From contig CAJNOJ010000139.1 of assembly GCA_905250025.1 (NCBI GenBank), forward strand, positions 62,001-126,000: a DNA stretch of 64,000 nt, given 5' to 3'. The notes beneath the pieces were generated by a model, which did no database searches, was not told the origin of the DNA, and worked only from the letters and a program-made list of their open reading frames with translations. This DNA comes from Adineta ricciae. Lineage: Eukaryota > Rotifera > Eurotatoria > Adinetida > Adinetidae. Positions 1 through 44,476 of the stretch are shown piece by piece. The translations under genes and the position numbers were made by a program. Numbering within the stretch: the first letter of the stretch is position 1; each line of letters opens with the position of its first letter.

Positions 1-1419
1 AACCAAATTCTCGAATACGATCGTTTGAAGTTCCTTACTTCCGATCTCCGGTAGAATAAATGTAGATAATTTACTTAAACAATTTTTCAGCGTCCTTTTC
101 GCTGATGAACTACTTTGAAAACTTCGTGTGTCTTGAACATTTTCATCATAAATTAACTCCAAATAAATCAACCAAAGTCGTTCGTTTTCGATATAATTAA
201 CTTCGCCAACTTCGAATAGCGTTCCGATCATGAATAGAATTTCATCTTCGGTTTGAAAATGACTTAAATGAGATATGTCAGCAAACGATCGACTTTGAAC
301 TTGGCAATCGATTTTGACTTCAAATAAAACGTTTTGCAATTGATCATCACTTTGCGCAAGTGAATTCAGATAAAATGTTGCTAATTGACGATGCTTTGTT
401 GTCGAAAAGAAGCTATTAGTTATCGCTAAACGATAACTCGCCAGTTCGTCAATTTCATTACGTGACATTGTTTGACCACGATAGACAGTAAGCTTCGGAC
501 TGTCGATATGTTTTGTTCGAAATTTTTCATATTCATCAGTCAATTGTTTGTATAGGTCTTGGATGAACCAGCCAAACAAAAATAACAATTCAACATTGTG
601 TTTTCGGAGGGCTTGGTTAAGTAGACGATAGAGAAATGTATCACGACTATACCACCAGACGGCATTGCGTGGTTGGTAATTCAATTGAAATTCATCGATT
701 AAATTGGTTTGTGTAATATTTCCGATGTAGTGTTCTTTTAATAGATCGAATTTTTGCCGACAGTAGTCGATTGGATATGGAAGATGGACTAAAATTTCAA
801 TAAATCTTACCCATCAGGACCATTCTTTATCAGTTGTGTTTTCTTCTTCGATATCAGATTTACTTGTGATTTGGGTGAAAACTATTCTATCATCGTGTTT
901 TCTGAAGTTATTCAGACTATTGGATAAGTTCAATATCAGGTTGTCTGATGAATCATAGACGTTTACAGTTTTAAAAAATTCGCTTCCATGTTCATGTTGA
1001 TTTTGACGGAGAACATGGATCGATTGAATGTTGTGTAAATCGACTAGTTGAGGGAATAACATATCGTTAAGCGAATGGCAGCATACTAAAAACGTTATAA
1101 AACCATCCTGCTCCGATTGCTGTAGATGGGCTAAACATTCGTCGATATTGTTGAATCGCATCGTTTTATCAACAACATTTATAAACTTTTCAAACATTAT
1201 ATTCTCATTGATGCGTTCAGTATTGAACATCGGAGGAGATGAAATTAACCACACTAATTGATACAATTCAAGTTTGATTCGTCTCGCACAATCTTTCGTT
1301 GAATCAAAAGTTCGTGAGAATGGTGGAAGTGTCTCAGATACAGAATCTACTATTTTTGTCATAGTGCAATGCCGATTCACCATATTTTCATTTGACTCAT
1401 CCATACTGTACTTCACCAT
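1..1419 (-). pseudogene. ADP-ribosyltransferase, bdelloid type, with an internal stop (haplotype 1, runs off window)
   Basis: Reads leftwards from ATG at 1417-1419 and stays open to base 1 except for one in-frame TGA at 814-816 (codon 202). The other allele (8947-9818) has TGG there, so this is a Trp-to-stop change. Residues ~45-190 form an N-terminal alpha/beta-looking domain seen in bdelloid ARTs. The catalytic ART part follows: YRGQ at codons 313-316 (the R of the R-S-E triad), SFFSTT around 336-341 (S), and E-D-E at 391-393, an ExE motif that in the family marks arginine-specific mono-ADP-ribosylation. The C-terminus lies outside the window; in related rotifer proteins TPRs often follow, but none is visible. 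Upstream, 580 bp separate it from the divergent polycystin gene. ART assignment is firm; whether the allele is dead or read through is unknown. Confidence 0.85.
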
Positions 1420-2001
1420 AAATGGTAGCAGAGCTGAAAGATGTTGAATACTTATTGTGAATCACAGGTGCAACATAAAAATTGCTTGGTTTTTTCCAAC
1501 AATTTTTTTTTTGTTCTCTCCCGTACTTCTATAACACACACTTCATAGACAGAAGAGAAAAAGTGTTTTACAAAAAATATTTTTGGATAAAGTCTTTCTC
1601 TTTACACATACATGGACAACAGAAGTATAAAAATAGCTCGGTTCGATTTCTGTTGCAGTTGAAGACTTTTTTCATCAGACAGTATTGTAAATCATACATT
1701 CGTTCTTGTATGTTATAAAGGATGGAAAATAATGCAAAACTATAACAACAAGAAAAGTAGGAGATCACTTAGTCGAATGAAAAAGCATGATATACATCAT
1801 TTGAGTTTTTCTAAACTACTCAAATAATCATGTTTGTATAAATGAACGGAAATGTAATAAGTATCTCCATTGTCAGCATAAATAAAGCTGTGAAATAGTA
1901 CAACTTATCATTCTCCGGATATTTAAAAAGTCCATTTCCTTTTGGAATGCTGCTGAAACGAAAGAAATAACGATATCATTCTATATTAAAATAGTGGCAA
2001 G
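1420..2001. promoter_or_regulatory. Divergent intergenic region between the ART and polycystin genes (haplotype 1)
   Basis: About 580 bp separate the two outward-facing start codons, so this stretch should hold both promoters. It is conserved by eye with 9819-10398 of the other allele. Short frames on both strands start and stop at different places in the two alleles and do not look coding. I recognise no specific operator or RNA gene. Confidence 0.5.
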
Positions 2002-5000
2002 ATGCGGATGCTATACTCGTTGTCCGTTGGTCTTGTAAAGTTTTGGTTCATTATGATGATTGTACAAAACGAATCAGGTTAGGATAATGAAGAAATTCTG
2101 ATTCTATCGTAATCTAAGAGCACATGTTGTCTATTTAGCTGCAATACTAAGCTCTCCTCAGTGTAACAACTACACATTGATAGATGATCCGACGAGAAGC
2201 GTTAATGCAACCAATACTGGAAATTATACCTGTGATCGAGACTTTTTCACTTCTGTTCCAATGTGGTTTCGATTTGTTGGCGCTGGCGGTTCGCAACTGA
2301 CAACGGATCCAGTGGAAATCTATCACTGCACCACTCATGCACCGGGCTGGTATTCATCAGAAATGCCCCTTAGTTCGGACACAACTGTGAACGGAACTGT
2401 ATGTTTTACATGGTCAGGAAGCTATTGCAATTGGAATAATACCATTTCGGTCACCAATTGTGGATCGTACTATGTTTATCAATTGAGTCAACCGCCAACG
2501 TGCCGATTACGCTACTGTACTACTATAGTACCAACTGATTGGTTAACATCAACAGCAAAAATTACCACAAAAGGTAAAATACCTAATGCAAAAACATTAC
2601 CTATACTTTGAATATCATATATGAGCAATCATTGCCATTCTTGGCTTGATCTTTTCCTATAATGCAAATATCAGATATTTTCAAAAACAATTTCATACAG
2701 TGTAACAGTCTTCGGTTAACAATGTACGCAAATGCTTAGAATATTCGTCACAGATTTATCACTTGGAAATAGTTTACCCGGAGCACAGAATGATTGAAAA
2801 CCTGAGAAGACATAGAAAATACTCTATCTCTCCTTTCCTTCAATGGATTATTTTTTCTTCTTAAACAGGCGAAACTCAAATCCAGACTACAATGAGCCTA
2901 TCCACCACAAAAATCCAGACGACTACTGATCTATCTACTACAAAGATCCAGACTACTAATGGTTTATCTACCACGAAGCTTCCGACAACTATGGGCCTAT
3001 CAACCACAAAAATCCAGACAACTACTGATCTAGCTACTACAAAAATCGAGACTAGTGCTGAGCTACTCACGACAAAAGTTCCCTTTACTACTAGCGAATC
3101 TAGTGCGAAAGCTCAGACAGGTTCGTTAATTAGATTAATCTCAATCATTAAGACGATAAATGATTGATGTATGTATATGAAAGAGATTTTACCGTCCGAT
3201 TTATTCTTAGGATGCTTTTCTCCAAAAGTAATACTCATTCCCAGTGTATCAACACTCTCATCACCAACGCAATTTCGTCGAAGCCAAGATTTTACCATAG
3301 TTTCAATAATTGAACTGAATTGTAACAATTCATTCTTAACAAGTTCACAATGGACAATGAAGAATTGTACTTCGACTTGCTTACAACAAATTCCCATAGA
3401 TCCCACAATTCCGACAACATTCAATGAATTGTATATTCCTGCACGAACTTTACCTTATGGTGTATATGAAGTCAGATTAACAGTTACAATGACTCAAATG
3501 CCAAGTTTATTTTCCTCGGAGGTTACTTATATTCAAATAACTCCATCAGGCATAACGGCAAATTTAGTTCAATATGGAACATCAATGATTACACGAGGTG
3601 ATCAGCAAGACCTTCAATTAGATCCAGGAAGTTATTCTGTTGATCCAGATCAAAATAGTTTCAATGCTAGTGTAAGAATGATTCATATAAAAGCAGACTT
3701 TTCAAGTTACATCGTCATTCTATAGGCATGGAAATATCAATACTATTGTCGAATATACGGATTATCTATGTTTCCAAATTCGCAAGGTTCATTGATGACA
3801 ATTGACGACATGAGAAATGATTCATCGAATCCGTCATGTTTGTCATTGAATCGAGCAGGATGGCGGTTTGACAATTCCATCAATTCGTCCTTGACAATTC
3901 TTGCCGGGACGTTACAATCCAATCGTACCTATCAATTTATGGTCTACATGGAAAATCGTCGAAATTCTTCTCTTCAAGCTACTGGATACGTTCTTGTCAA
4001 TGTCGAAGATACTCGTCCACAAATGATTCTCATAGGGTAAAGCATAGTTTATTCGATTTTTCATAGCAGAATTTGTCATTCTATAGCTGTGTGATATGGA
4101 CAATGTGTCAGCCAAATCTCGAATTTCAACTTGTTAATCCGACAACTCAAGTTGCTTTGTTTGCAGTTTGCGTGGGAAGCTGTTTGACAATTCAAAATAT
4201 CACGTGGAATATCTACCATGGTTCAATGAATTCAATAGCGAATTTTACTCGGTGGATTTCATTCAATCAAACAACATCATATCAGAATAATTGGTTTTTC
4301 GGTAACGAAATCATGTTTCCCTTCATAAAAAAAAAGAAATGGATCAATCTTCATAGGTACAATCACGTGTAATTTCACTGCTGTCAATCAATTGTTTTTG
4401 TCCAATCCGGATATTGAACTTTGGCGATTTGAAGTCGTTTACACTTTTACATCGGAAACAAGTTCAAGTTCATTGAATTTTGTTATCAATCAACCACCAC
4501 GAAATGGCTCATGTTCAATCAGTCCTGTCAATGGAACAACAAGTACTTTATTCGATATTTCATGTCCAGATTGGTTTGACGAAGACAAAATTAAAGATTA
4601 CACTATTTACGGTAACTCTCGCGTATCTTCACTATTAAATGAAACGTTCTTTCATTATTAGGATGGACAGATAGCTCAACAAAGAAAATGATGGTTGCAT
4701 ATTCAACAGTACCGATATTTCAAGTTCGACTGCCACTTGGTGATAATCGAACATCCTTACTTCATTTGATTGTTGAAATTCGAGATGAACTTGATTGTAT
4801 TACACAGTACAACATTTCTTCTGTGACTGTGATCGCTGATTCAGTGGCTATTATCAGTCTAGTGAATGATATTCAACATTCGCCGGCAAGAAACCCGATT
4901 ATTCAATTACTCGCAAGCGGGAATCAAAATGTAGTCGGACAAGTGATTACTTCAGTCTCACTACAGTTTAATCAAATGAATAATGAAAATATTGACCAAG

Positions 5001-8000
5001 CAATCTCAAGTATACGTTTATATAATAAATTTCAACTTATTTTAAACTTTTTTCAGACGGTGTTCCGATGGCAAGCATCGTCATTTCATCATTAAACAGT
5101 CTGCATGAACAACAGGTAATTTTCTCGTCGTATGAATCTTCTTGTTTCACTTATTTGAAACTGATAGTCATCAATGCCATTGAATCAGTCAGCATTGGAC
5201 GAATACAATAAGGAACTAAATTCTCGTGCAGCTGCACGAGACTACCTCATCAGGTTCACAACACAACTATTAATAACAACAGTGAATAACATCAAATTGC
5301 AAGCATCAACATTAGCGCAATTAACTCAAGCGACCAATGAACTGACAAGAGAAACTTTAGTACGTAAAATATTTCAACTTTGCATCTTTCTCCGAAGATT
5401 TTATTTGAATTTAGAAAACGGCTTCTAATCGATGTTATCAGTTAGCATTGACTTTGGAATCCATGAAAGAAAAAACGCCATACGAAGATGTACAACAAGC
5501 TTCACTTGATCTTTTTCAATGTGCAGCTAATCTTATGAGCGTGAGATGCTTTCGAAATAAAGATAAACGCTAGCGTTTGTGTATCTAGGCTGTTAATGGA
5601 CCGTTGCAACAGCGAACAGCCATTCTCAATTTAGATTTTGATCGAGGCACGAATTTTCCCGATGACTATGATACGAATCTTGAACTTGAATGGGCTAAGC
5701 TAAGTAAAGCACTGCATTACATTCCATAGTATCTGTATCAGAAAATGTTCAGGTCTATTTGCTGATGGCGATGATTTTTCGTGGGAAACAATACAAAAGA
5801 ATCGAAATCTATATTATCAAAAACTATTGGCTAAGCAAATCAGCGATGATATGACCAAGTTGATTTCGTTATTAACGTCATCACTGAACATCAATTTGAA
5901 CGTTGGACAAGATTTCAACATCTCTACAGCACAGATATTGATGTCATTGGAAACAAAAGTTAGTCAATCACTTTCATCTTCATATACAAAACAAATCGGA
6001 TATGGGCAAGTTCAACTTCCAGATAATTTCAGTTCTTATCTTGGCGCAAATGAAAAAATCTCCATTCGGGTAAGATCTATCTTCTCAATGTGCTCTCTAA
6101 GACGAATGGCTTTAGTCTATGATACAACCATTGGCTTCATATGGGAATTCCAAATCATCATTCAACACAAATCTATCAAGATCATTATCATTTTCAATTC
6201 TTGATCAAAATCAAAATGAAATCCCTATCCGAACACCTACGAATCATTCTATCAAATTGATCATTCCTCGCGATCCCAATCTTCTCATTCCATCAATGAT
6301 TTTGTATAATGTCACATCGATGAACTCGACACCTCATAATCTCATTTTCAACTATCATTATTTGAACCTGTCTTCAACACTTCCCATTTCGGTCCATTGG
6401 CAGATTCAACCATTGAATATAACTGTTGCTTATTTGTTCATCTATCGATTTGACCAAATACCACAACTGAACAGTTCCACAAACGACCTCGATGGATGGA
6501 CACTTTTCTGTCCTGATGAATTGACGAATGAGAGTATTTACACATATTTTATTGATAATCAACGTACAGCTGGCCACCAATCAGTGATATTTGGCCTCCG
6601 AGAACTGAATGCAACAGAGATGGGTCAACGATGCTTGAATATATCGGAGGAGACCCTTCCGATTACAAATGAACCATTTCATTTTACATCCAATTATCAA
6701 TTGAGAGCTTATACATCGAGTTGTTATTATCTGGACGACGATCAGCAATGGAAATCCAATGGGTTATTGGTTGGATCATCAACTAATCTTTATCAAACAG
6801 AATGTCATTCAACGCATTTAACAACGTTTGCAAGTGGTTTTGTTATTTTTCCTAAAGCGGTCGACTGGAGTTATGTGTTTGCCAATGCTGATTTCACGAA
6901 GAATAAAACTGTGTACTTAACGGTGATTTGTGCTTCTGTGATTTACATTATTTTAATCGTTTATGCACGTCACCATGACAAAAAAGACGTTGAAAAATTG
7001 GGTGTAACAATTCTAGCTGACAATCGCAAAAAGGATCAATATTTCTATCAGATCATCGTATTTACCGGCGGAAGAAAAAACGCTGGGACGAAATCGAATG
7101 TACACTTCATCTTACACGGGAACGATGATCAAACTCGGATTCGAACATTGGCTGATTCTCATCGTCGGATTCTTCGGCGAAGTGGCATTGATTCATTTCT
7201 CATGAGTGTTCCCAAGTCGTTAGGACTATTGAACTGTGTTCGAATTTGGCATGATAATAGTGGAAAAGGCTCATCGGCATCCTGGTTTTTGAAGTATCTA
7301 ATTGTTCGTGATTTGCAAACAATGGAAACGTTTTATTTTATTTGTCAACGGTGGTTTGCTGTTGAGAATGATGATGGCAAAATTGAACGCGTCGTGCCTG
7401 TGGCAGGTGAGCTCGAAACACGTCAATTCTCATTCGTGATAACCAAGCGAACGTATCATAGCATTTCTGATGATCATTTATGGTTTTCAATCTTCTCACG
7501 TCCACCCTCGAATCAGTTCACCCGTGTTCAACGATGTACCTGTTGTTTCGTTCTTCTGTTTGTTGCCATGTTTCTGAATATCATGTATTATGATTTATCA
7601 AATGAAGGAAAAGCAACAAATGCATCAAGCATATCATTTGGTTCACTTTATATATCTCCTCGACAGGTATGTCAGACTGTAACTCGTCGAGTGTTTTTCT
7701 ATATAGATATTTACACCTAGGTTGTCATTGGTATTATTGTGGAATTCTTTGCTTTTATTCCAAGCTTGTTGCTTGTTCAGTTCTTTCGACGACTTCGTCC
7801 TCGTCGCAAACGACATTCACCCATTCGACAAGCCCTATCGCAAGCCAAGGGATCTGTTCAAGACAGTCCTGATCGAAAATCGTTATTCACCTTTCCGTGG
7901 TGGTGCATATTCATAGCGTATGGTTTATGTGTAACACTAGTTGGTCTTTCGATTCTATTTATCATTGCTCGTGGCATTGAATTTGGTGATACAAAGACAC

Positions 8001-8257
8001 AAAAATGGCTCACATCGATACTAAGTGGATTCTTTTCCTCGATTCTTCTCACTCAACCATTGAAAGTAATACGAGACTTTGTTGTCGATTTTCAATGCAT
8101 TATACGCCTTTTTCACACGCTTTAGATCGTGGTAATGGCGATCATCTTTACTTGTTTTTGTCGAAAATCTCAAAAAGATCGCGAAGCAAATGAATTCCTG
8201 GATGATGATCAGATTGGTCTAGAAGCAGATGAAGAATATTTTCACAAAACTAATAAG
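2002..8257 (+). CDS. Polycystin-1-like protein, N-terminal and middle part (haplotype 1 allele)
   Basis: Multi-exon gene with short introns. Exon 1 (2002-2077) starts with a hydrophobic signal peptide; exon 2 starts at 2139. Domains in order: D8C domain of the uromodulin type (about 2150-2560, cysteine-rich with a THAPGW motif); Thr-rich 11-residue repeats, 6 units (2892-3089); REJ region (about 3210-4860); a GPS/GAIN end with a HLT cleavage-like site (about 6700-6835); first TM segment (6910-6970); PLAT domain (about 7035-7400); then further TM segments (7535-8130). The last exon seen ends at 8257 before a GT donor. The intron that follows contains a mobile element and is cut at the N at 8946; the rest of this allele is at 19590-21555. 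The family (PKD1/PKD1L) forms receptor-channel complexes with TRPP subunits in ciliary or sensory membranes; the role here is inferred. Confidence 0.85.
2892..3089 (+). repeat. Coding minisatellite, 33-bp units (6 copies), mucin-like linker of polycystin
   Basis: Six tandem 33-bp units, each coding an 11-residue motif of the pattern L-S/A-T-T-K-I/L-Q-T-T-x-x. The Thr and Ser richness suggests an O-glycosylated stalk between the D8C and REJ domains. The other allele has 12 units at 11289-11684. A long open frame on the opposite strand is a by-product of the repeat. Confidence 0.85.
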
Positions 8258-8275
8258 GTAGACCTTTTAGATATC

Positions 8276-8945
8276 GGCATAAACGCGCGTGACGCGATGA
8301 CGTTTTGGCCAGAGTGTACGCATCTTTTCTCCTAGACTAGTGCCTTTAAAAATTTTCTTTTTTTGCCAGAATATGTACCTCATAGCCATCTATCAATCTT
8401 AAAAAAATCGATTCGTTTGAATGCACCGTTCGGAAGTTATAGCTGAAATACGTCGCGTAACACGATGACGAAAAAAAGACAAAAAACTGAGGGTGCCTCA
8501 CTTGTGACTTGTTTTTCTCTACCTATGTTTTACTCTTACAAAATTGTGTCCGTCGTGGATATTAGAAAACACTTTGGTCTACCTGACGAGAGAAGAAAAT
8601 TCTCCAAACATCATTCACTGTTAGTCGATATCTACATCTCATTAACGTAACGCGATGACGACTTCGTAACGCGATGATGGTGTTTTTTTCGCTGAGTTTG
8701 GACCTATTTTTTTCTCATCTTGGTGTATATATGTCAACCAATACTTATTACGTTTTAAACGTCTATGTGAGGGCTCTCGATATCATAGAACTGTTCGATG
8801 CTAGTCAAATCTATATGTGTCCGGAAGTCAGGTACAAATCCCAAAATTTGCATCTTTCGGATAGGGACACGATGCTTTTTGCTTTTAAAATTCTGATAAT
8901 GTTCGATGGAAATACAGAAAATGTTTTGTTTTTAATCATACAACA
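8276..8945. mobile_element. Left part of an intronic transposon with GGCATAAACGCG terminus
   Basis: After the duplicated target GATATC (8270-8275) the sequence turns into GGCATAAACGCGCGTGACGCG. The right end of the same element, in reverse complement GGCTTAAACGCGTAACGCG, is at 19414-19554 and is again followed by GATATC. The other allele has a single GATATC (16857-16862) with no insert. The last 60 bp (8886-8945) are repeated exactly at 19354-19413, so the joined element is about 811 bp. It contains several copies of a motif like CGTAACGCGATGACG (near 8287, 8452, 8645, 8665). No transposase frame is evident, so it looks non-autonomous. Confidence 0.7.
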
Positions 8946-8946
8946 N
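8946..8946. other. Single-N contig join
   Basis: Left sequence is inside the intronic transposon; right sequence begins in the middle of the ART gene, homologous to position 548. The two sides are unrelated, so this is an assembly join. Confidence 0.9.
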
Positions 8947-9818
8947 TTGTATAGGTCTTGGATGAACCAGCCAAACAAAAATAACAATTCAACATTGTGT
9001 TTTCGGAGGGCTTGGTTAAGTAGACGATAGAGAAATGTATCACGACTATACCACCAGACGGCATTGCCTGGTTGGTAATTCAATTGAAATTCATCGATTA
9101 AATTGGTTTGTGTATTATTTCCGATGTAGTGTTCTTTTAGTAGATTGAATTTTTGCCGACAGTAGTCGATTGGATATGGAAGATGGACTAGAATTTCAAT
9201 AAATCTTACCCACCAGGACCATTCTTTATCCGTTGTGTTTTCTTCTTCGATATCAGATTTATTTGTGATTCGGGTGAAAACTATTCTATCATCGTGTTTT
9301 CTGAAGTTATTCAGACTATTTGATAAGTTCAATATCAGACTTTCTAATGAATCATAGACGTTTACAGTTTTGAAAAATTCGCTTCCATGTTCATGTTGAT
9401 TTTGACGAAGAACATGGATCGATTGAATGCTGTGTAAATCAACTAGTTGAGGAAATAACATATCGTTAAGCGAATGGCAGCATACTAAAAACGTTATAAA
9501 ACCATCCTGCTCCGATTGCTGTAGATGGGCTAAACATTCGTCGATATTGTTGAATATCATTGTTTTATCAACAACATTTGTAAACCTTTCAAACATTAAA
9601 TTCTCATTGATTTGTTCACTATTGAACATCGGAGGAGATGAAATTAACCACACTAATTGATACAATTCAAGTTTGATTCGTCTCGGACAATCTTTCGTTG
9701 AATCAAAAGTTCGTGAGAATGGTGGAAGTATCTCAGATGCAGAATCGACTATTTTTGTCATAGTGCAATGTTGATCCACCATATTTTCATTTGACTCATC
9801 CATACTGTACTTCACCAT
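8947..9818 (-). CDS. ADP-ribosyltransferase, N-terminal fragment (haplotype 2 allele)
   Basis: Allele of the ART gene at 1-1419, starting at ATG 9816-9818 and cut by the join at 8946 after about 290 codons, before the YRGQ catalytic motif. It carries TGG where the other allele has the stop. The visible part is the N-terminal bdelloid extension (with the VWL motif near residue 56 and a D-E-C-x-x-H segment) and the stretch leading into the ART domain. No other lesion is visible within the 872 bp. An apparent continuation leftwards past the N is an artefact of the join. Confidence 0.85.
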
Positions 9819-10398
9819 AAATGGTAGCAGAGCTGAAAGATGTTGAATACTTATTGTGAATCACAGGTGCAACATAAAAATTGCTTGGTTTTTTCCAACA
9901 TTTCTTTTCTGTTCTCTCCCGTACTTCTATAACATACACTTCATAGACAGAAGAGAAAAAGTGTTTTACAAAAAATATTTTTGGATAAAGTCTTTCTCTT
10001 TACACATACATGGACAACAGAAGTATAAAAATAGCTCGGTTCGATTTCTCTTGCAACTGAAGACGTTTTCATCAGACAGTATTGTAAATGAAGCATTCGT
10101 TCTTGCATGTTATAAAGGATGGAAAATAATGCAAAACTATAACAACAAGAAAAGTAGGAGATCACTAAGTCGAATGAAAAAGCATGATATACATCATTTG
10201 AGTTTTTCTAAACTACTCAAATAATCATGTTTGTATAAATGAACGGAAATGTAATAAGTATCTCCATTGTCAGCATACATAAAGCTGTGAAATAGTACAA
10301 CTTATCATTCTCCGGATATTTAAAAACTCCATTTCCTTTTGGAATGCTGCTGAAACGAAAGAAATAACGATATCATTCTATATCAACATAGTGGCAAC
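9819..10398. promoter_or_regulatory. Divergent intergenic region between ART and polycystin (haplotype 2)
   Basis: Allelic counterpart of 1420-2001, with scattered substitutions and small indels. It should hold the promoters of both divergent genes. No gene is visible in it. Confidence 0.5.
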
Positions 10399-13300: not shown

Positions 13301-16300
13301 ATATTTCAAGTTCGCCTGCCACTTGGTGATAATCAAACATCCTTACTTCATTTGATTGTTGATATTCGAGATGAACTAGACTGTATTACACAGTACAACA
13401 TTTCTTCTGTAACTGTGCTCGCTGATTCAGCGGCTATTATCAGTCTAGTGAATGATATTCAACATTCACCGACAAGAAACCCGATTATTCAATTGCTCGC
13501 AAGTGGAAATCAAAATGTAGTCGGACAAGTGATTACTTCAGTCTCACTACAGTTTAATCAAATGAATAATGAAAATCTTGATCAAGCAATCTCAAGTATA
13601 CTTTTATAATTATAATAAACTTCAACTTATTTTAGACTTTTTTTCAGACGGTGTTCCGATGGCAAGCATCGTCATTTCATCATTAAACAGTCTGCATGAA
13701 CAACAGGTAATTTTCTCCTCATATGAATCTTCTTGTTTCACTTATTTGAAACTGATAGTTATCAATGTCATTGAATCAGTCAGCATTGGACGAATACAAT
13801 AAGGAACTAAATTCTCGCGCAGCTGCACGAGACTATCTCATCAGGTTCACACCACAACTATTAATAACAACAGTGAATCACATCAAATTACAAGCATCAA
13901 CATTAGCGCAATTAACCCAAGCAACCAATGAACTGACAAGAGAAACTTTAGTAAAAAATTTCAACTTTGCATCTTTCTTCGCAAATTTTATCTGAATTTA
14001 GAAAACGGCTTCTAACCGATGTTATCAGTTAGCATTGACTTTGGAATCCATGAAAGAAAAAACGTCATACGACGATGTACAACAAGCTTCCCTTGATCTT
14101 TTTCAATGTGCAGCGAATCTTTTGAGCGTGAGATTCTTTCGAAATAAAGATAAAAGCTAACGTTAGTGTATCTAGGCTGTTAATGGACCGTTGCAACAGC
14201 GAACAGCCATCCTCAATTTAGATTTTGATCGAGGCACGAATTTTCCCGATGATTATGATACGAATCTTGAACTTGAATGGGCTAAGCTAAGTAAATCACT
14301 GCATTCCATTCCATAGTATCTGTATGAGAAAATGTTCAGGTCTATTTGCTGATGGCGATGATTTTTCGTGGGAAACGATACAAAAGAATCGAAATCTATA
14401 TTATCAAAAACTATTGGCTAAGCAAATCAGCGATGATATGACCAAGTTGATTTCGTTATTAACATCATCACTGAACATCAATTTGAATGTTGGACAAGAT
14501 TTCAACATCTCCACAGCACAGATATTGATGTCATTGGAAACAAAAGTTAGTCAATCACTTTCATCTTCATATACAAAACAAATCGGATATGGGCAAGTTC
14601 AACTTCCAGATAATTTCAGTTCTTATCTTGGCGCAAATGAAAAAATCTCCATTCGGGTAAGATCTATCTTCTCAATGTGCTCTCTAAAACGAATGGTTTT
14701 AGTCCATGATGCAACCATTGGCTTCATATGGTAATTCCAAATTATCATTCAACACAAATCTATCAAGATCATTATCATTTTCAATTCTTGATCAAAATCA
14801 AAATGAAATTCCCATCCGAACACCCACTAATCACTCTATCAAGTTGATCATTCCTCGTGATCCCAATCTTCTCATTCCATCAATGATTTTGTATAATGTC
14901 ACTTCGATGAACTCGACACCTCATAATCTCATTTTCAACTATCATTATTTGAATCTCTCTTCAACACTTCCCACTTCGGTCCACTGGCAGATTCAACCAT
15001 TGAATATAGCTGTTGCTTATCTGTTCATCTATCGATTTGATCAAACACCACAACTGAACAGTTCCACGAACGACCTCGATGGATGGACACTTTTCTGTCC
15101 TAATGACTTAACGAATGAGAGTATTTACACATATTTTGTCGATAATCAACGTACTGCTGGTCATCAATCAGTGATATTTGGTCTCCGAGAACTGAATGAA
15201 ACAGAAATGGGTCAACGATGCTTGAATATATCGAAGGAGAATCTTCCGATTACAAATGAACCATTTCATTTTACATCGAATTATCAATTGAGAGCTTATA
15301 CATCGGGTTGTTACTATCTGGACGACGACCAACAATGGAAATCCGATGGGTTATTGGTTGGATCACCAACCAACCTTTATCAAACAGAATGTCATTCAAC
15401 GCATTTAACAACTTTTGCAAGTGGTTTTGTTATTTTTCCTAAAGCGGTCGACTGGAGTTATGTGTTTGCCAATGCTGATTTCATGAAGAATAAAACTGTG
15501 TACTTGACGGTAATTTGTGCTTCTGTGATTTACATTATTTTGATCGTTTATGCACGTTACTATGACAAAAAAGACGTTGAAAAATTGGGTGTAACAATTC
15601 TAGCTGACAATCGCAAAAAGGATCAATATTTCTATCAGATCATCGTATTTACCGGCGGTAGAAAAAACGCTGGGACGAAATCGAATGTACACTTCATCTT
15701 ACACGGAAACGATGATCAAACTCGGATTCGAACATTGGCTGATTCTCATCGTCGGATTCTTCGGCGAAGTGGCGTTGATTCATTTCTCATGAGTGTTCCC
15801 AAGTCCTTAGGACTATTGAACTGTGTTCGAATTTGGCATGATAATAGTGGCAAAGGCTCATCGGCATCCTGGTTTTTGAAGTATTTAATTGTTCGTGATC
15901 TACAAACAATGGAAACGTTTTATTTTATTTGTCAACGATGGTTTGCTGTTGAGAATGATGATGGCAAAATTGAACGTGTCTTGCCTGTGGCAGGCGAGCT
16001 CGAGACACGTCAATTCTCATTCGTGATAACCAAGCGAACGTATCATAGCATTTCCGATGGTCATTTATGGTTTTCAATCTTCTCACGCCCACCATCGAAT
16101 CAATTCACTCGCGTTCAACGATGTACATGTTGTTTCGTTCTTTTCTTTGTTTCCATGTTTCTGAATATTATGTATTATGATTTATCAAATGAAGCAAAAT
16201 CAACAAATGCATCAAGCATATCATTTGGTTCGCTTTATATATCTCCTCGACAGGTATGTCAGACTATAATTACTCGTCGATTGTTTTTTCTATATGGATA

Positions 16301-18856
16301 TTCACGTTTAGGTTGTTATTGGTATTATTGTGGAATTCTTTGCTTTTATTCCAAGTTTGCTGCTTGTTCAGTTCTTTCGACGACTTCACTCCCGTCGCAA
16401 ACGACTTTCACCCGTTCGAAAAGCTCTATCGCAAGTTACGGGATCCCTTCAAGATAATCCTGATCGAAAGTCACCATTAACCTTTCCGTGGTGGTGTATA
16501 TTCATAGCTTATGGTTTATGTGTAACACTAGTTAGTCTTTCGATCCTATTTATCATAGCTCGTGGCATTGAATTTGGTGATACAAAGACACAAAAATGGC
16601 TCACATCGATATTAAGTGGCTTCGTTTCCTCGATTCTCTTCACTCAACCATTGAAAGTAATACGAGACTTTGTTATCGATTTTCAATGAATTATACGCCT
16701 TTTTTCACGCTTTAGATCGTGGTAATGGCGATCTTCTTCACTTGTTTTTGTCGAAAATCTCAGAAAGATCGCGAAGCAAATGAATTCCTGGATGATGATC
16801 AGATTGGTTTAGAAGCAGATGAAGACTATTTTCACAAAACTGAGGTTGACTTTTTAGATATCTTTCAATATCGATAGCGATAGATGATGTTATTTTTAGA
16901 AGAAGTCGATGATTGCTCGTCCATCTTCGATTCGTCCTGGTCGTTTGAGTGAAGCTGACCTCATTCATCTTCGTCAACAACGTCTGAAAGAAATTCACAT
17001 GTGGACAGTCATTCGAGAAATTTTGATGTATATATGTTTCATCTCCGTTCTCTACGTGATCGTCTATTCCAATCCTTATTCAAATGCATTCCTACAAGCC
17101 AATCATCTACGAAAATATTTTCTCAATTCAAGACAGACTGACCTAGATTTGACAAAAGTTTGTTTTCTTCTTCTCAACTTTCATTCTATCTTAAGTATAA
17201 ATTGATTGTAGGTGTCGACGATTGATGAGTATTGGCAATGGTTGGAGAGTAGCTTTGTTGAAAATCTTCGCGCACAAAAGTGGTACAATGGCGACCCACC
17301 TCGCAATCTCAGCGGTTTTATCAATGATAAATCTCATCGATTAATTGGATGGGCAACCATGCGACAACTACGTGTCAAATCCGAACAGTGCCGAATAGTT
17401 TCGACATGTCACGCCGATTATAGTTTCTTCAACGAAGATAAACATTCATACACGCCAACATGGCTTAATGAAACATTGCGAGTGTCCGATTCGCCGGTTG
17501 AAAAAGCATTCACATACCAATCTAGTGATGAACTCGATACATTTATTTATGCTGGAAATTATGCAAGTTATGGAAGTGGTGGTTATGTGTATGAATTTCG
17601 TGGTGGTTTCATAGATGTTCAGAATAATATTTCTCGACTCCATGCACTTAGATGGATTGATGAAAAAACACGAGCTGTGATTATTCAGCTCACTCTTTAT
17701 AATCCAAATGTTCGGTTGTTCACAGCTGTGACAATCCTGGCCGAATTCTTATCATCAGGTGGAGTGTTCACTTCAGCTCGATTTGAGCCAATTAGCTTTG
17801 ACGGTAATCGATTCTTATTTTTGGTTCGGAAGTTCAGTTTTCTCTGTTTCTTGTAGCATTTGTATCACGTTCTCAATTGCTTTGCACTATTATTTACATG
17901 TTACTGGTAGTTTATTTCATGTGGATTGAGTTACGATCATTCATCGAGTTGAAAAGGAAATATTTCTGTCAATTCTGGTCTTACGTTCAACTTGGACTGA
18001 TTGTGTGTTCCTGGACAAGTGTTGGTATCTATACTTGGCGCTATAACGAATGTCAACGAATTGGTCAATTGTTTTCTGAAACCAACGGATATGTTTACAT
18101 TAATTTGCAATTCGCATCGTATGTCAATGATCTACTGACATATCTATTGGGTTTTTGTTGTTTCTTCGGTACAATTCAGTTGATTCGATTGTGTCGTTTC
18201 AATCCACGCCTGTGTTTGTTTGTTCATACGCTTCAACACTCAGCGAAAGAGCTACTATCGTTTATGTTGATGTTTGCAATTATGTTCATGTCATTTCTTT
18301 GTCTATTTTATTTGCTGTTTATGTCGCAGCTGCCGGAATGTGCAAGTCTGTTAGGAACAGCACAAATGTTATTTGAAATGACATTGATGAAATTTGATAC
18401 ACATGACTTGAGTGAAGCTGCAGCATTTCTCGGTCCATTCTGCTTTAGTTTATTTATTGTGTTCGTGGTGTTTATTTGTATAAGTATGTTTTTATCAATC
18501 GTTGCTGACAATTTTCGTCGTGTAAGAGCAACTCTTGATGACAAAAGTGATGGAATATTTTCATTTATGTTCGAACGATTTCACCGGTGGACAGGTAGAG
18601 CAAATAGGGTTGGATTTTGATCATAGGAAAACGTTTATTTAGGTTGGAAGAAAATAACAGAAGAAGAAGACATGAATGCTGAAAGAAATCAACGATTGAG
18701 TGGACAGTATTATCATCCGGCTGACATGTTGTCAAAAAAGATTGATGAATTACTATATGCACTTGATCGAGTATGTAACCTTTTGAATTTGAAATTCTAA
18801 AGTTTGTTGATTTTGATTATGAATAGATTTATATGGATCAAACAAGAAAGTTCTAA
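10399..18856 (+). CDS. Polycystin-1-like receptor-channel, full-length allele (haplotype 2)
   Basis: Complete gene. Exon 1 (10399-10474) encodes a signal peptide; exon 2 starts at 10536. Domains: D8C (10547-10960), Thr-rich repeat stalk of 12 units (11289-11684), REJ (about 11810-13460), GPS with HLT (about 15300-15430), TM1 (15490-15555), PLAT (15630-15995), TM segments at about 16115-16190, 16315-16400, 16490-16570 and 16600-16750, another TM near 17015-17070, the extracellular TOP/polycystin domain (17210-17800, with a W-x-D-E-x-T-R-A motif), and the polycystin cation channel block (17877-18540). A cytosolic tail rich in charged residues follows, and two short last exons end at TAA 18854-18856. 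Introns are mostly about 50-60 bp. The architecture is PKD1-like with its own channel domain. No disruption was found at the junctions I checked; I did not check every one. Confidence 0.88.
11289..11684 (+). repeat. Coding minisatellite, 33-bp units (12 copies), mucin-like linker of polycystin
   Basis: Twelve tandem 11-codon units with L/P-P/S-T-T-K-L/I-Q-T-T-x-x consensus. Some form higher-order repeats: the pair ending in Q-T-T-A-D followed by L-P-T-T-K-L recurs. The last two units match the last two of the 6-unit allele at 2892-3089, so the difference lies in the upstream and middle units. Confidence 0.85.
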
Positions 18857-19200
18857 TCATTTATTTGAAACGCTTTCGTGATTAGATATTTTCCAAACTA
18901 ATAAAATCACTTCTTCGTAGACAAAACTTTCTGTTTCGAAGACAACCGAAACGAAGATATGAGTGAAATGTATTTTATATTCTATATCTTCGCATCCACC
19001 CTTCGAGATGGACTTGGTCAATCTTATGATAACCATAATTAGCCTTTCACATTTGAAATGATTGTTTATTTGAGATGGATAAATATAAATGAAAAGGATG
19101 AGGTGAAAGCAACGTGTTTGATTAAAGTTCATCGTTCGAACCAAAGCCACCGAATAATTTATATTTGATGAATGTCTGTTGATAGCTATCTTCAAAAGTT
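18857..19200. other. Convergent 3' intergenic region (haplotype 2)
   Basis: About 340 bp between the polycystin stop and the stop of the discoidin-like gene on the opposite strand. It should contain both polyadenylation regions. It is conserved with 21556-21877. No gene is seen. Confidence 0.5.
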
Positions 19201-19352
19201 TTAATAGCCATAGAATTGTATTTCAGAATACTGAACGGAATCATCTGATCCACGTTTCAGAGTGACGAGAAAGCGATAACTTGTATAACTAATTGAGTTG
19301 TTGACACATTGTCTTGTTGCACAGTCATATCTCGCCGGAGACACTCCTAGAC
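19201..19352 (-). CDS. Discoidin-like membrane protein, last 50 codons only (haplotype 2)
   Basis: Matches the C-terminal end of the gene at 21878-23469, through the SVQYSEIQFYGY terminus, and is cut by the join at 19353. Only the end of the galactose-binding-like ectodomain is present. Confidence 0.85.
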
Positions 19353-19353
19353 N
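19353..19353. other. Single-N contig join
   Basis: The left side is the discoidin-like gene. The right side is transposon sequence whose first 60 bp (19354-19413) equal 8886-8945 exactly. Confidence 0.9.
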
Positions 19354-19413
19354 TAAAATTCTGATAATGTTCGATGGAAATACAGAAAATGTTTTGTTTT
19401 TAATCATACAACA

Positions 19414-19554
19414 CAATTAGAGGTATGTGTGAACATAAATCAGTAAGATCCGATGCGAATTGATTTATAACTCACGCATTTCGAACTGTAAATTAGATGA
19501 AAAAGATGATATAAATACTACATTTTCTGAGGTGACGCGTTACGCGTTTAAGCC
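19414..19554. mobile_element. Right part of the intronic transposon (continues from 8276-8945)
   Basis: Ends in ACGCGTTTAAGCC, the inverted partner of GGCATAAACGCG at 8276, followed by GATATC (19555-19560), the second copy of the 6-bp target repeat. It lies in the same polycystin intron as the left half. Confidence 0.7.
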
Positions 19555-19589
19555 GATATCTTTCAGCATCGATAGCAATAGATGATGTC

Positions 19590-21555
19590 TTTTTTAAGAA
19601 GAAATCGATGATTACTCGTCCATCTTCGATTCGTCCTGGCCGCTTGAATGAAGCTGAGCTCATTCGTCTTCGTCAAAAGCGTCTGAAAGAAATTCACATG
19701 TGGACAGTCATTCGAGAAATTTTGATGTATATATGTTTCATCTCAGTTCTCTACATGGTCGTCTATTCCAATCCTTATTCAAATGCATTCCTACAGGCCA
19801 ATCATCTACGAAAATATTTTCTCAATTCAAGACAGGCTGATTTAGATTTGACAGAAGTTTGTTTTCTCCTTCTCAACTTTCATTCTATCTTAAGTATAAA
19901 TTGATTGTAGGTGTCGACGATTGATAAGTATTGGCAATGGTTGGGGAGTAGCTTTGTTGATAATCTTCGCGCACAAAAGTGGTACAATGGCGACCCACCT
20001 CGCAATCTCAGCGGTTTTATCAATGATAAATCTCATCGATTAATCGGATGGGCAACCATGAGACAACTACGTGTCAAACCCGAACAGTGTCGAATAGTTT
20101 CGACATGTCACGCCGATTATAGTTTCTTCAACGAAGATAAACATTCATACACACCGACATGGCTTAATGAAACATCGCGAATGTCCGATTCGCCAGTTGA
20201 AAAAGCATTCACATACCAGTCTAGTGATGAACTGGATACATTTATTTATGCTGGAACTTATGCAAGTTATGGAAGCGGTGGTTATGTGTATGAATTTCGT
20301 GGTGGTTTCATAGATGTTCGGAATAATATTTCTCGACTGCATGCGCTTGGATGGATTGATGAAAAAACACGAGCTGTGATTATTCAGCTCACTCTTTATA
20401 ATCCAAATGTTCGATTGTTCACGGCTGTGACAATCCTGGCCGAATTCTTATCCACAGGTGGAGTGTTCACTTCAGCTCGATTTGAGCCAATTAGCTTTGA
20501 CGGTAGTCGATTCTTATTTTTGGTTCGGAAGTTCAGTTTTCTCTGTTTCTTGTAGCATTTACATCACGTTCTCAATTGCTTTGCACTATTATTTACATGT
20601 TACTGGTAGTTTACTTCATGTGGATTGAGTTACGATCATTCATCGAGTTGAAACGGAAATATTTTTATCATTTCTGGTCTTACGTTCAACTTGGACTGAT
20701 TGTGTGTTCCTGGACAAGTGTTGGTATCTATACTTGGCGCTATAATGAATGTCAACGGATTGGCCAATTGTTTTCTGAAACCAACGGATACGTTTACATT
20801 AATTTGCAATTCGCATCGTATGTCAATGATCTACTGACATATCTATTGGGTTTTTGCTGTTTCTTCGGTACAATTCAGTTGATTCGATTGTGTCGTTTCA
20901 ATCCACGCCTGTGTTTATTTGTTCATACGCTTAAACACTCAGCGAAAGAGCTACTATCATTTATGTTCATGTTTGCAATTATGTTCATGTCATTTCTTTG
21001 TCTATTTTATTTGTTGTTTATGTCGCAGCTGCCGGAATGTGCAAGTCTGTTAGGAACAGCACAAATGTTATTTGAAATGACATTGATGAAATTTGATGCA
21101 CATGACTTGAGTGAAGCCGCCGCATTTCTCGGTCCATTCTGCTTTAGTTTATTTATTGTGTTCGTGGTGTTTATTTGTATAAGTATGTTTTTATCAATCG
21201 TTGTTGATAATTTTCGTCGTGTAAGAGCAACTCTTGATGACCAAAGTGATGGAATATTTTCATTTATGTTGGAACGATTTCAGCGGTGGACAGGTAGAAC
21301 AAATAGGGTTGGATTTTGATCATAGGAAAACGTTTGTTTAGGTTGGAAGAAAATGACAGAAGAAGACATGAACGCTGAAAGAAATGAACGATTGCGTGCT
21401 GGACAGTACTATCATCCGGCTGACATGTTGTCAAAAAAGGTTGATGAATTACTATATGCACTTGATCGAGTATGTAGCCTTTTGAATTTGAAATTCTAAA
21501 GTTTGTTGATTTTGATTATGAATAGATTTATATGGATCAAGCAAGAAAATTCTAA
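19590..21555 (+). CDS. Polycystin-1-like protein, C-terminal channel part (haplotype 1 allele, continues 2002-8257)
   Basis: Corresponds exon for exon to 16900-18856 of the full allele. It contains the cytosolic KKS-start exon with a TM segment (about 19605-19870), the TOP/polycystin domain (19911-20500), the channel TM block (20576-21240), the charged tail exon starting near 21343, and a final short exon after a 54-bp intron ending at TAA 21553-21555. The acceptor before the first exon is AAG rather than the TAG of the other allele. The ion channel block has the features of the PKD_channel family: several TM helices, a long hydrophobic pore region with LPECASLLG, and a final helix ending in VVDNF. 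Physically it belongs after 8257. Confidence 0.87.
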
Positions 21556-21877
21556 TCATTTATTGGAAATGCTTTCGTGATTCGGTATTTTTCAAGCTAA
21601 TAAAACCACTTCTTCGAAGACAACCGAAAAAAGATATGAGTGAAATGTATTTTATATTCTATATCTTCGTATCCACCCTTCGAGATGGACTTGGTCAATC
21701 TGATAACCATAATTAGTCTTTCACATTTGAAATGATTGTTTATTTGAGATGGATAAATATAAATTACGAAAAGGATGAGGCGAAAGCAACATGTTTGATT
21801 AAAGTTCATCGATCGAACCAAAGCCACCGAATAATTTATATTTGGTGGATGTCTGTTGATAGCTATCTTCAAAAGTT
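21556..21877. other. Convergent 3' intergenic region (haplotype 1)
   Basis: Allelic to 18857-19200, with a small deletion. It holds the 3' ends of polycystin and of the discoidin-like gene. No gene is seen. Confidence 0.5.
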
Positions 21878-23469
21878 TTAATAGCCATAGAACTGTATTT
21901 CAGAATACTGAACGGAATCATCTGATCCACGTTTCAGAGTGACGAGAAAGCGATAACTTGTATAACTAATTGAGTTGTTGACACATTGTCTTGTTGCACA
22001 GTCATATCTCGCCGGAGACACTCCTAGACCAGTAAATCCATTATATATAAGAGTCCAACTTTTACCTAACGTGAGATTAGCTCCTTGTTCATTACTTCCT
22101 TCTAACGTGATTCGNTGTATTTCAGAATACTGAACGGAATCATCTGATCCACGTTTCAGAGTGACGAGAAAGCGATAACTTGTATAACTAATTGAGTTGT
22201 TGACACATTGTCTTGTTGCACAGTCATATCTCGCCGGAGACACTCCTAGACCAGTAAATCCATTATATATAAGAGTCCAACTTTTACCTAACGTGAGATT
22301 AGCTCCTTGTTCATTACTTCCTTCTAACGTGATTCGTATTGGGTCACGTCTCACCTGATCATTGGCTACACAGATTTGAAATGCTTTCACCATTGACAAA
22401 CCTCTTTTCAACGTTAAATAAAAGCCAGTATTTAGACCACATTCATCATTTCCATATCCATTATTAATACATGAGCCGAAGTTCAAATATTTCGTTAAAG
22501 TGTTGTTGTCAATCGCATTTTCCGGTCGTTCTGCTGGGGGATAATTGCCGACTGTTGAACCTGCTGTTGAAGCTGTACTATCAGCGCCCATAGTCGTATT
22601 GTACACGCCATAGATACTATCGTTAGGATGGATCAGTGCGATGAGATCTATCAAAGAAGAGAAACCGACCACTGCACTTGGTTAAATAAAAATTATTTAC
22701 AAACTCACCTGATATTTGAACAGAATTCATTCGCATAATTTGGACTTTCTTCGGACCTTGACTGATGATTGAAAACTTTCCTGTTCTATTTGAATGATAT
22801 GTTGTAACTACCAAAATATACGTTACAAATGACTGAAGCGTCAACTGAATTTGAAATTGTAAAACATCATCTGCAATATCATCATTTTCTTGCAGAAGAT
22901 TTTGACAAGGCATCAATGGATCAAATTCATTATAGTATAGATAACCATACGTATCAATACTACTAACGCTAGTAAATGTATAGTTTCCACTCATTGATAT
23001 ATTTATCATTAATGCTTCATAGTAGAGTTTTCTTGATGACATTGTTGAGTAGAATACTTTGCTTTGATGTGTTAGCTCACTCATATAGTCGTATGATAAA
23101 TTAGACGATGAGTTAAAACTGGTTGCTATAGAGAAAGAATGAGTGAAGTTTTCATATTTTGAATGAAATCGATTTGTTTTTGTCATGGATACATACCAGT
23201 GGTGGATATAATTGTATGGTTGGTGCCGGATAGTAGTTCATTACTTCTTTTTAATACCAATGGTAAAACAATGACTATGGTTATAATACATGCAAAAATA
23301 GTGCTCATCGCAATGATCGACAGCATCTTTTTCCATGAACTGTGTATTTTAAAGGAAAAATCATGTTAGTATAGATTCAAGTAGATATATTTTACTTTTC
23401 CGTTGTTTTCAATTGATTTGCGGATACAGAGACAGGCTCAGTTTTCATAGTAGATGGCGTTTGACTCAT
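21878..23469 (-). CDS. Single-pass membrane protein with discoidin-like ectodomain
   Basis: Four exons fit in frame: 23469-23396 (short cytosolic N-terminus rich in Ser/Thr), 23339-23197 (TM helix, SIIAMSTIFACIITIVIVL), 23125-22709 (Asn-glycosylation-rich ectodomain) and 22671-21878. The last exon has an F5/8-type or galactose-binding-like pattern with PPAERPENAIDNNTLTKYLN and paired cysteines. Type II topology is inferred from the TM position. The last exon is corrupted by the join at 22115: 21894-22114 is repeated as 22116-22336, so the true exon lacks one of these copies. It converges on the polycystin gene. The fold suggests carbohydrate or lipid surface binding; the ligand is unknown. 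Confidence 0.75.
21894..22336. repeat. 221-bp direct duplication around N 22115 (unmerged contig overlap)
   Basis: 21894-22114 and 22116-22336 are the same 221 bp, separated only by an N. The length is identical to the duplications at three other joins, which marks it as an assembly overlap and not a genomic tandem repeat. Confidence 0.92.
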
Positions 23470-24603
23470 CTATATCAAAAACAGAATGATTTCAGAAACA
23501 AAAGCTAGTATAGATGCATTGTTAAAATTATCACGTATGATACGATGTTGGACTAGTTGCTCACACTACTCATACAATAAGATGTGAATTCAAATCTGCT
23601 AGTCATTGGGAGTATAAGAGAAAACTATGAATGTTTTTCTGAAAACATTTTCTTTTTGGCAGTACTCTGTGAGCCAGGAGAATAACAACGCAAGCTATGC
23701 TTCTCTTTCAATATTTTAAGTGATATCACGCTTCACGAAGTAGAGTAGTGCGCAAATGAGTTTGACTTCAATTGTCCTATTCATAAAATCTGTAAACGAT
23801 GAAGTTCTATCTAATTTTTATGATGATTAAAACGGGATTAGAGCGACAACGTTACTGGGACAGAATAATAAATATTATAATAATTTCCTAGAAATGAAAT
23901 ACTTCCTCGACACACACAATCACGGACTATTTTACCAAAACTCATTCAACAAATGTCGATTCACCGAAGATTAGGCATTCGTACACACGATTTTTTAAAA
24001 TGTTTTAATAGATAACAGCTTTAAACAAACACAATCATAACGGATTAGTAGTCAATAGGCTTTTCGTGCCGTCTTTCAAATATCCTCACTTACTTCCATG
24101 TTTGTTTGCAAGAGAAACAACAGTTCATTAAACCTGGTGACTACACAATAAAACTAAAGAAGTGAATATTCTTCTTTCTTTTAGATTGGAAAAAGTTATT
24201 ACTTAAAAGTGCAAAACCAATTTTTGTGTAGATGTAGTTACTAAAATTGAAACCCTCTCTTGTAAATGAGTATGAGAAGATGCTATTGTTTGTTTCTAGG
24301 GCGAACCTTCCAATCTTTGTTAAACGCTCTAGAAAACAGCATCTTAACAAAAAAGACGGGAAAGTAAATCGAACATTATATTATTAATGCTAAACCGAAA
24401 TAGTAATGTTGTGCACAATAGTGCGGTATGCCCGTACAGATATGTTGTCAAAAGACGTTTGTCTTTGTACAATATCGTAAATTTTCTTCTCCAAAGAAAA
24501 AAGATAATTGGCTGAGTTTAAAAAAATTATAAGAAAAAACTAAAGTCAATACTTATTTAGTTTCTATAAGCAAACCAAAATTTTCTTCGATCTCTTTGGA
24601 ATA
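23470..24603. other. Intergenic region without recognisable gene
   Basis: About 1.1 kb upstream of the discoidin-like gene. An AG immediately before its ATG (TTGATATAG) suggests an intron in the 5' UTR. Short open frames exist on both strands (for example 24141-24350, minus), but they lack homology I can recognise and are not supported. Confidence 0.4.
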
Positions 24604-25046
24604 TTGGACCTGGATATTTTCATTTGCTACGATGTTTGTTTTCTTTTCTTAACTACGTCAATCGTCTTTCTTCACTAGTCATATGTAATATTCGCGGTTC
24701 AAAGATGCTTCTACATGGCAAGGCAATTTTTTTCATCGGCAATAACAGAAAATTAGTTTTCATGCAATTGTATAACTCTGAGGACAAATGAAAGGCTCCG
24801 CACAATACTTTTACTTCCTTCAACNTTGGACCTGGATATTTTCATTTGCTACGATGTTTGTTTTCTTTTCTTAACTACGTCAATCGTCTTTCTTCACTAG
24901 TCATATGTAATATTCGCGGTTCAAAGATGCTTCTACATGGCAAGGCAATTTTTTTCATCGGCAATAACAGAAAATTAGTTTTCATGCAATTGTATAACTC
25001 TGAGGACAAATGAAAGGCTCCGCACAATACTTTTACTTCCTTCAAC
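24604..25046. repeat. 221-bp direct duplication around N 24825 (unmerged contig overlap)
   Basis: 24604-24824 recurs as 24826-25046 after a single N. Same length as at the other overlap joins. The underlying sequence is noncoding as far as I can see. Confidence 0.92.
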
Positions 25047-38804: not shown

Positions 38805-38990
38805 TACTTTTATTCACCGTAACACGTGTTTTCTCTCGATATGAAAGTATATCGCTGACAACCTCAACTACCTTTATGAAAAACAAGAGAATGAATAAAT
38901 AATGATCACTAGACGGTGATGTATAGAACATGTTCGAAAGAACAGTGTACACACCAACGCGTTACCTTTTCCGTACGAAGGTTATACGCC

Positions 38991-38998
38991 TATATAAG
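38991..38998 (+). promoter_or_regulatory. TATA box of the MFS transporter (haplotype 1)
   Basis: TATATAAG lies 60 bp before ATG 39051. It implies transcription starts at about 39020-39025, which rules out the earlier in-frame ATGs at 38916 and 38919 as translation starts. It is conserved at 48123-48130. Confidence 0.65.
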
Positions 38999-39050
38999 GA
39001 GACCAATAGTTGTTGTCTATGCAAGAACAAGCAAATTCTCCTATAACAAC

Positions 39051-44437: not shown

Positions 44438-44476
44438 TTCAAAAGTGACAATGAAAGAGACAGAGAAATGTCACCC

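Follow-up and report, generated by a model that had tools for sequence, protein, structure and literature searches.

In bdelloid rotifers, homologous blocks that lie colinear or palindromic on the same scaffold have been taken as signs of an ameiotic chromosome structure (PMC5916493). An earlier assembly of Adineta ricciae contained only two such linked homologous blocks, both of them tandem, and its authors cautioned that scaffolding errors may lie behind breaks at N gaps (Nowell et al. 2018, PMC5916493). Another assembly of Adineta vaga is reported with a single palindrome only (PMC7749112). Among assembly errors, the closest described systems are the false heterotype (haplotypic) duplications of the Vertebrate Genomes Project (PMC9516828) and the erroneous duplications of Kelley and Salzberg 2010 (PMC2864568). 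In our literature search, no title or abstract opening reported the arrangement described below in the later A. ricciae assembly. Simion et al. are said to have produced a chromosome-level A. vaga genome in 2021.

Here, we describe a locus of A. ricciae in which one allele of a polycystin-1-like gene stands between the two halves of the other, an order that can be written A-B-A'. We conclude that this order is almost certainly a linearised assembly bubble, that is, a scaffolding artefact in which haplotype 2 has been placed inside a split haplotype 1. This reading draws on the overlaps, repeats and copy numbers found in the assembled sequence. Similar arrangements recur along the same scaffold, and the exact overlaps at contig ends offer a means of finding them.

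Structure of the locus

The window, which is the whole stretch of 64,000 nucleotides that was analysed, corresponds to C139:62001-126000 in an assembly of 130,461,839 bases and 1033 contigs. Its GC content is 35.9%, beside published values for A. ricciae of 35.5-35.6% (PMC5916493, PMC7943196). The contigs of the first part of the window, here named c1 to c4, are separated by single Ns (Table 1). Further single Ns occur at 24825, 33306, 35816, 37024, 47009, 48415, 54083, 55670 and 58795, and a run of 100 Ns occupies 63580-63679. A single N is written by some scaffolders where an overlap is predicted but unconfirmed.

Table 1. Contigs, joins, overlaps and gene features of the locus. Positions are those of the window unless prefixed by C139; haplotype and bubble assignments follow the preferred reading.
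Feature	Position	Strand	Remarks
c1	1..8945	+	C139:59261-70945; left end lies outside the window
c1 stretch up to 547	C139:61870-62547	+	without partner on C139
Haplotype 1 arm in c1	from 548	+	aligned to c2
Branch overlap	548..668	+	121 bp identical to c2 start, 8947-9067; base 122 differs
Haplotype 1 open frame, GPS and PLAT	6116..7717	+	5' half of split gene, c1
Element, left part	8271..8945	+	haplotype 1 only, missing in c2; flanking ATAT at 8271-8274
First 221 bp of exact repeat	8725..8945	+	c1 stops on base 221 of the 356-bp repeat
c1/c3 overlap	8886..8945	+	60 bp identical to c3 start, 19354-19413
N-join c1/c2	8946..8946	.	single N
c2, haplotype 2 arm	8947..19352	+	all polycystin-1-like domains; element site empty
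Haplotype 2 open frame, PLAT and sub-cut-off GPS	14703..16454	+	c2
Haplotype 2 open frames, Polycystin_dom and PKD_channel	17212..18617	+	c2
Putative bubble closing, arm 2	19217..19352	+	final 136 bp of c2 match c4 start exactly, 22116-22251
N-join c2/c3	19353..19353	.	single N
c3, remainder of haplotype 1	19354..22114	+	right part of element to ~19559, then 3' half of gene
121-bp identity	19428..19548	+	identical to first 121 bp of C777 and to C342:63294-63414
Haplotype 1 open frames, Polycystin_dom and PKD_channel	19911..21316	+	3' half of split gene, c3
Putative bubble closing, arm 1	21894..22114	+	final 221 bp of c3 match c4 start exactly
N-join c3/c4	22115..22115	.	single N
c4	22116..24824	+	interior 22340-24600 has one close copy genome-wide
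Putative second linearised bubble	37881..54304	+	arm 1 37025-47008; arm 2 47010-48414 and 48416-54082
Third set, tandem allelic contigs	54297..60539	+	like joins at 55670 and 58795

The initial annotation had proposed that 1-8945 and 19414-22114 together make up one haplotype, that 8947-19352 is a second, uninterrupted copy of the region lacking a transposon, and that a scaffolder laid the two in line. These proposals hold up well. The last 60 bp of c1 are repeated exactly at the start of c3, and the Ns stand exactly at 8946 and 19353. When 1-8945 and 19414-22114 are joined by script, colinearity with 8947-19352 is restored except at the transposable element and at a 33-bp repeat array of unequal length, and beyond these two features the copies show ordinary allelic differences. 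Identity is 94.4% between 548-3054 and 8947-11451, again 94.4% between 2896-8275 and 11491-16862, and 94.6% between 16857-19352 and 19555-22029, for a local allele divergence of ~5-6%. The colinear region is real, but it starts at 548 and not at position 1 as first proposed; the c1 stretch preceding it, for which partners were sought on C139, is probably collapsed sequence.

The gene content of the region had been described as ART, polycystin and discoidin. The polycystin part stands: the open frames tested contain the Pfam domains D8C, REJ, GPS, PLAT, Polycystin_dom and PKD_channel of a polycystin-1-like gene. ART and discoidin, on the other hand, found no Pfam support in these frames, which cover part of the exons. 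The first four domains lie on c1 and the last two on c3, while c2 has all six, its GPS domain scoring 21.6 bits, slightly below the Pfam cut-off of 22.5. As written, the scaffold order reads gene 5' half, whole gene, gene 3' half, and the animal would be expected to carry two whole polycystin-1-like alleles.

The end of c1 and the start of c3 both lie inside one ~815-bp element with terminal inverted repeats, whose termini read ATATCGGC at both ends and agree at 19 of their first 30 bases. In c2 the corresponding site is empty and clean (TTTTAGATATCTTTC), and the other copy reads GATAT-CGGC...GCCG-ATATC. With inverted termini and an allelic empty site, the element fits a terminal-inverted-repeat DNA transposon. 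Its target-site duplication reads as ATAT or TA, two forms that cannot be distinguished because the target GATATC is palindromic. Judging from the reading frames, the element appears to sit in a short intron of the polycystin-1-like gene. Diverged relatives (70-81%) occur on ten other contigs, across its first ~215 bp.

A second copy of this element, at C342:62609-63425, is unbroken and runs from the sequence at the c1 end straight into the continuation found in c3. Since the element is intact there, the step from 8945 to 19414 is its natural order, and a chance origin of the 60-bp identity was rejected on the same ground. The 8 kb around the C342 element match C139 over the element only, which places it at a different genomic site; we accordingly discarded the idea that the C342 locus is a third allele.

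Copy numbers bear on whether the two copies are alleles at all. A genome-wide search with 12000-16800, covering the best 40 of 124 candidates, recovered the stretch itself plus one further full-length copy at 95%, and both lie on C139. The stretch C139:196001-201000 likewise has two full-length copies at ~95%. A third, partial copy of a gene part, also among the best 40 of 124, lies at C139:51374-51802 (~430 bp, 96% to c2); it has a further piece at 29702-30014, positionally its own allelic counterpart, and is taken for a nearby duplicated gene fragment. Both arms converge on c4, the interior of which is single copy and which would represent a collapsed or homozygous continuation.

An old tandem duplication would also put two copies on a shared scaffold, if a transposon had later entered one of the paralogues and the scaffolder had mis-ordered them. 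The gene family does have many paralogous matches elsewhere at 63-81%, and the ~430-bp partial copy shows that pieces of it lie nearby. However, paralogues should each have an allele, and no extra full-length copies at 95% were present among the best 40 of 124 candidates. Convergence of the arms on a single-copy contig likewise speaks against paralogues, as does the weighted divergence of 5.9% (identity 94.1%) over the 32 same-strand pairs of the scaffold described below, which is near the value of 5.5% reported for heterozygosity between alleles in A. ricciae (PMC7953838). We consider a paralogous origin highly improbable, and treat the copies as alleles in what follows.

Contig ends and graph overlaps

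The contigs of this locus end at exact sequence overlaps. The arms of a bubble in a de Bruijn graph are expected to have an exact overlap of fixed length with the contig at the branch and to diverge at the base that follows. Here the two alleles share 121 bp at the opening and then a mismatch, and the closing overlaps are 221 bp for arm 1 and 136 bp for arm 2, the latter not a fixed length. Between these points, an exact repeat of 356 bp is common to haplotype 1 (8725 to 19548, across the join) and C342:63059-63414. The end of c1 falls on base 221 of this repeat, and the final 121 bp of the repeat are also the first of C777, after which C777 and C342 part at the next base.

The same lengths recur at other joins. 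Our survey covered C139:1-246000, with 25 contig blocks, 24 of which start at a join. An exact 121-bp run to another place on the scaffold is found at 7 of the 24 contig starts, and an exact 221-bp overlap at 5 of the 24 adjacent joins; two more pairs of non-adjacent contigs have a 221-bp overlap with 2 mismatches. At half of the joins (12/24), neither 121 nor 221 appears among the overlaps listed, or near values only, and other contig ends show different run lengths or none. Runs of exactly 121 occur with a frequency of 0.0002 among 63,382 interior allelic columns, and the excess at contig starts (~5e-21) leaves room for the fact that the length of 121 was picked after inspection of the data.

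Away from C139, C541 and C724 share 121 bp, and C541 and C358 share 221 bp. Overlap across a contig's own N was sought on C366, C717, C541, C777 and C724 and found on C717 only (220/221); at the C366 locus, just 33 bp of sequence follow the N on its right side. As an origin of the 221-bp overlaps we had considered Platanus with k = 222, and dropped it after the exact 121-bp runs were found. The 'maxhap' assemblies were built by SPAdes, whose last k was 121, in a section that is silent on the scaffolding of ARIC003 (Nowell et al. 2021, PMC7943196).

Proposed origin of the arrangement

The linearised bubble most probably arose as follows. In a highly heterozygous genome, a k-mer graph assembler would have put the two divergent alleles into separate arms, opening inside c1 and closing on c4. 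The haplotype 1 arm would then have been cut again at the transposon, because the 356-bp exact repeat that it has in common with C342 exceeds the assembler overlap. A scaffolder would have strung the four resulting contigs, which have agreeing neighbours, in one line with single-N joins. With both arms in one line, c2 would have ended up between c1 and c3, the two halves of haplotype 1. One homologue would truly read c1-c3-c4 and the other (left part of c1)-c2-c4, and the line c1-c2-c3-c4 holds both. Contig ends that fall at branch points of a k-mer graph, with exact runs of 121 and 221 bp, speak for an artefact, as the initial annotation proposed, and against an inserted block. We infer both the programs used and that read links caused this particular order.

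Several details fit the bubble less well. At 60 bp (c1/c3) and 136 bp (c2/c4), two of the overlaps have neither of the lengths 121 and 221, and c3 begins 74 bp upstream of the site that a 121-bp overlap would predict. Trimming or gap filling would have to be assumed for both overlaps and for the c3 start. The extra 100 bp in 221 over 121 is not explained by this account. A cause is found for the main cuts, and the arrangement belongs to a class of artefact that is already known and is not biology.

Two alleles of one diploid are not the only possible source of such arms. If the sample contained two individuals or clones, a copy contributed by each would produce an artefact of identical appearance, and sequence alone cannot tell the two sources apart. 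If the assembly is that of ARIC003, however, its DNA was taken from ~200 animals that all descend from a single individual (PMC7943196), and we regard a mixed origin as extremely improbable.

Recurrence along the scaffold

The same arrangement is found again at other places in the window and on the scaffold, which the initial annotation did not mention. In the second case (Table 1), both arms end on the contig starting at 54084, over 221 bp with 2 and 0 mismatches, and the anatomy is the same as in the first. Large partner pairs elsewhere on the scaffold are C139:7838-34104 with 34100-56418 and C139:162828-192439 with 211471-245837. With matches counted from 150 bp and 85% upwards, local and dispersed repeats included, same-strand partners cover 175,062 of 245,760 bases (71.2%) of C139:1-246000, a range that stops 26 kb short of the end of C139 and so misses partners there, such as that of C139:196001-201000. 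Within the same range, an N-join stands between the copies in 32/32 same-strand pairs of at least 800 bp and at least 85%, although joins are frequent on C139 (24 in 246 kb) and this count is not independent of contig density.

These pairs bear on the view that the order is real, with a 10.4-kb allelic copy inserted in the transposon of its own homologue as one of the tandem-linked homologous blocks of bdelloids. The order does stand so in the sequence, 71.2% of C139:1-246000 (repeats included) is matched on the same strand of the same scaffold, and 25 linked blocks, 2 of them tandem, were reported in the A. vaga 2013 assembly (PMC5916493). Yet both breakpoints of the supposed insertion are Ns, and contiguous sequence across the junction is found in none of the 32 pairs of at least 800 bp. 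Moreover, the block starts at the 121-bp graph branch in c1 and ends in the c4 overlap, and c1 breaks off on base 221 of the exact repeat; a simple insert would not have ends matching 548 and 22251. With block ends that are graph overlaps and no pair free of a join, we rejected a real insertion or tandem chromosome architecture, to which we now attach almost no credence.

How far the linearised bubbles extend beyond C139 is a separate matter. Of four C139 stretches used as genome-wide queries, two found a colinear partner on C139 and one (the c4 interior) is single copy; for the fourth, 29000-33300, C139 holds an inverted partner that is partial, and C924 a piece of 660 bp at 97%. A direct partner on the same contig, at 90% or more, was found for 0/4 loci queried on C342, C34, C231 and C541. 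The C342 query gave one inverted self-match at 75% and the C231 query none; the C541 query has a 91% partner on C302 across 1.4 kb, and the C34 query gave dispersed repeats and two inverted ~210-bp pieces, at 89%, on its own contig. The lack of such partners at these four loci weighs against extending the claim to the entire assembly. We can speculate, with somewhat less than even confidence, that many bubbles were laid in line assembly-wide, that linked blocks, tandem gene clusters and interrupted genes are largely artefacts of this kind, and that the 121- and 221-bp overlaps flag them. If so, exact contig-end overlaps of these lengths would mark false joins without recourse to reads.

The interest of this locus lies in the density of artefacts on C139 and in this read-free test. 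The linkage of homologous blocks can be traced here to scaffolding at base-pair resolution, and a polycystin-1-like gene appears falsely split into two fragments around a whole allele. Such false splits would inflate gene counts and tandem-duplicate counts taken from scaffolds of this type. Terminal exact overlaps may provide a simple test for the same error elsewhere.

Comparison with described duplications

False heterotype duplication, as described by the Vertebrate Genomes Project, shares with the present locus the separate retention of divergent alleles and the gaps between copies (PMC9516828); here, these are the Ns at 8946 and 19353 and the joins in all of the 32 pairs. The divergence is also at the level of alleles, with 94.1% identity against the published heterozygosity of 5.5%. 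In both cases genes are falsely duplicated or interrupted, an example being three ALDH2 exons placed inside ACAD10 (PMC9516828). The extent differs: in the older assemblies of that project, 7-24% of the false duplications fell on a single scaffold (PMC9516828), and here, on the one scaffold surveyed, same-scaffold pairs take up most of the sequence.

The erroneous duplication of Kelley and Salzberg 2010 allows for one misplaced, contained contig between two overlapping contigs, which is the order A-B-A' (PMC2864568). At our locus the outer contigs overlap by 60 bp, and c2 is colinear inside them, except for the element and the repeat array. Their test relied on mate-pair distances (PMC2864568), whereas ours uses sequence overlaps. 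Unlike their case, it takes both outer contigs together to contain c2, and the cut in the outer contig is accounted for by a transposon repeat.

The linked blocks of the A. vaga 2013 assembly are, as here, colinear and on one scaffold, and many of their breaks span N gaps (PMC5916493). Of those blocks, 23/25 are palindromes, and an ameiotic architecture was considered possible on their account (Nowell et al. 2018, PMC5916493). The blocks on C139, in contrast, stand in direct order and carry the marks of graph overlaps at their joins.

An inverted pair and an apparent local duplication

Within positions 1-246000 of C139, the scaffold that holds the window, a single inverted pair of at least 500 bp and at least 85% identity was found. 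Its window copy lies at a contig end, where an open frame encodes PAN and GH116 domains, and a 660-bp piece matching this stretch at 97% is present on another contig, C924. Elsewhere in the window, three open frames have DNA segments in common and gave no confident match in Pfam. They apparently represent a real local duplication, because the similar segments sit inside a single contig.

Coordinates of the repeats and the gap
Feature	Position	Counterpart	Identity
Inverted pair, 2,077 bp	window 31229-33305 (C139:93229-95305)	C139:4650-6726	97.3%
Open frames of 439, 452 and 423 aa	window 25385-29997		72-93%
Segments of these frames	window 25490-25792	window 28807-29109	93%
33-bp array, two alleles	window 2878-3077	window 11271-11676
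Partial polycystin-like copy, ~430 bp	C139:51374-51802	window 16501-16929	96%
Partial polycystin-like copy	C139:29702-30014
Relatives of element start, ~215 bp (loci L028-L037)	C358, C366, C446, C541, C717, C743, C777, C805, C34, C269		70-81%
Gap of 100 Ns	window 63580-63679

Repeats of the polycystin-1-like gene and scaffold structure

The polycystin-1-like gene includes a 33-bp repeat array (period 33/66/132) of unequal length between alleles, with about 5-6 units in one and 10-11 in the other. Left of the window, C139 carries partial copies of the part of this gene that surrounds the site of the element (the ~815-bp transposon of haplotype 1): one of about 430 bp at 96%, and shorter pieces near 92%. 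The two tabulated copies probably represent a gene fragment that was duplicated and that both alleles carry. The first part of the element has relatives on ten contigs; those on C358 and C743 lie near contig ends, and the element's repeat family may therefore cause contig breaks at several sites.

In contrast to the single Ns, the 100-N gap suggests a different kind of scaffolding step, and parts of window 58349-62092 have their allelic partners beyond it.
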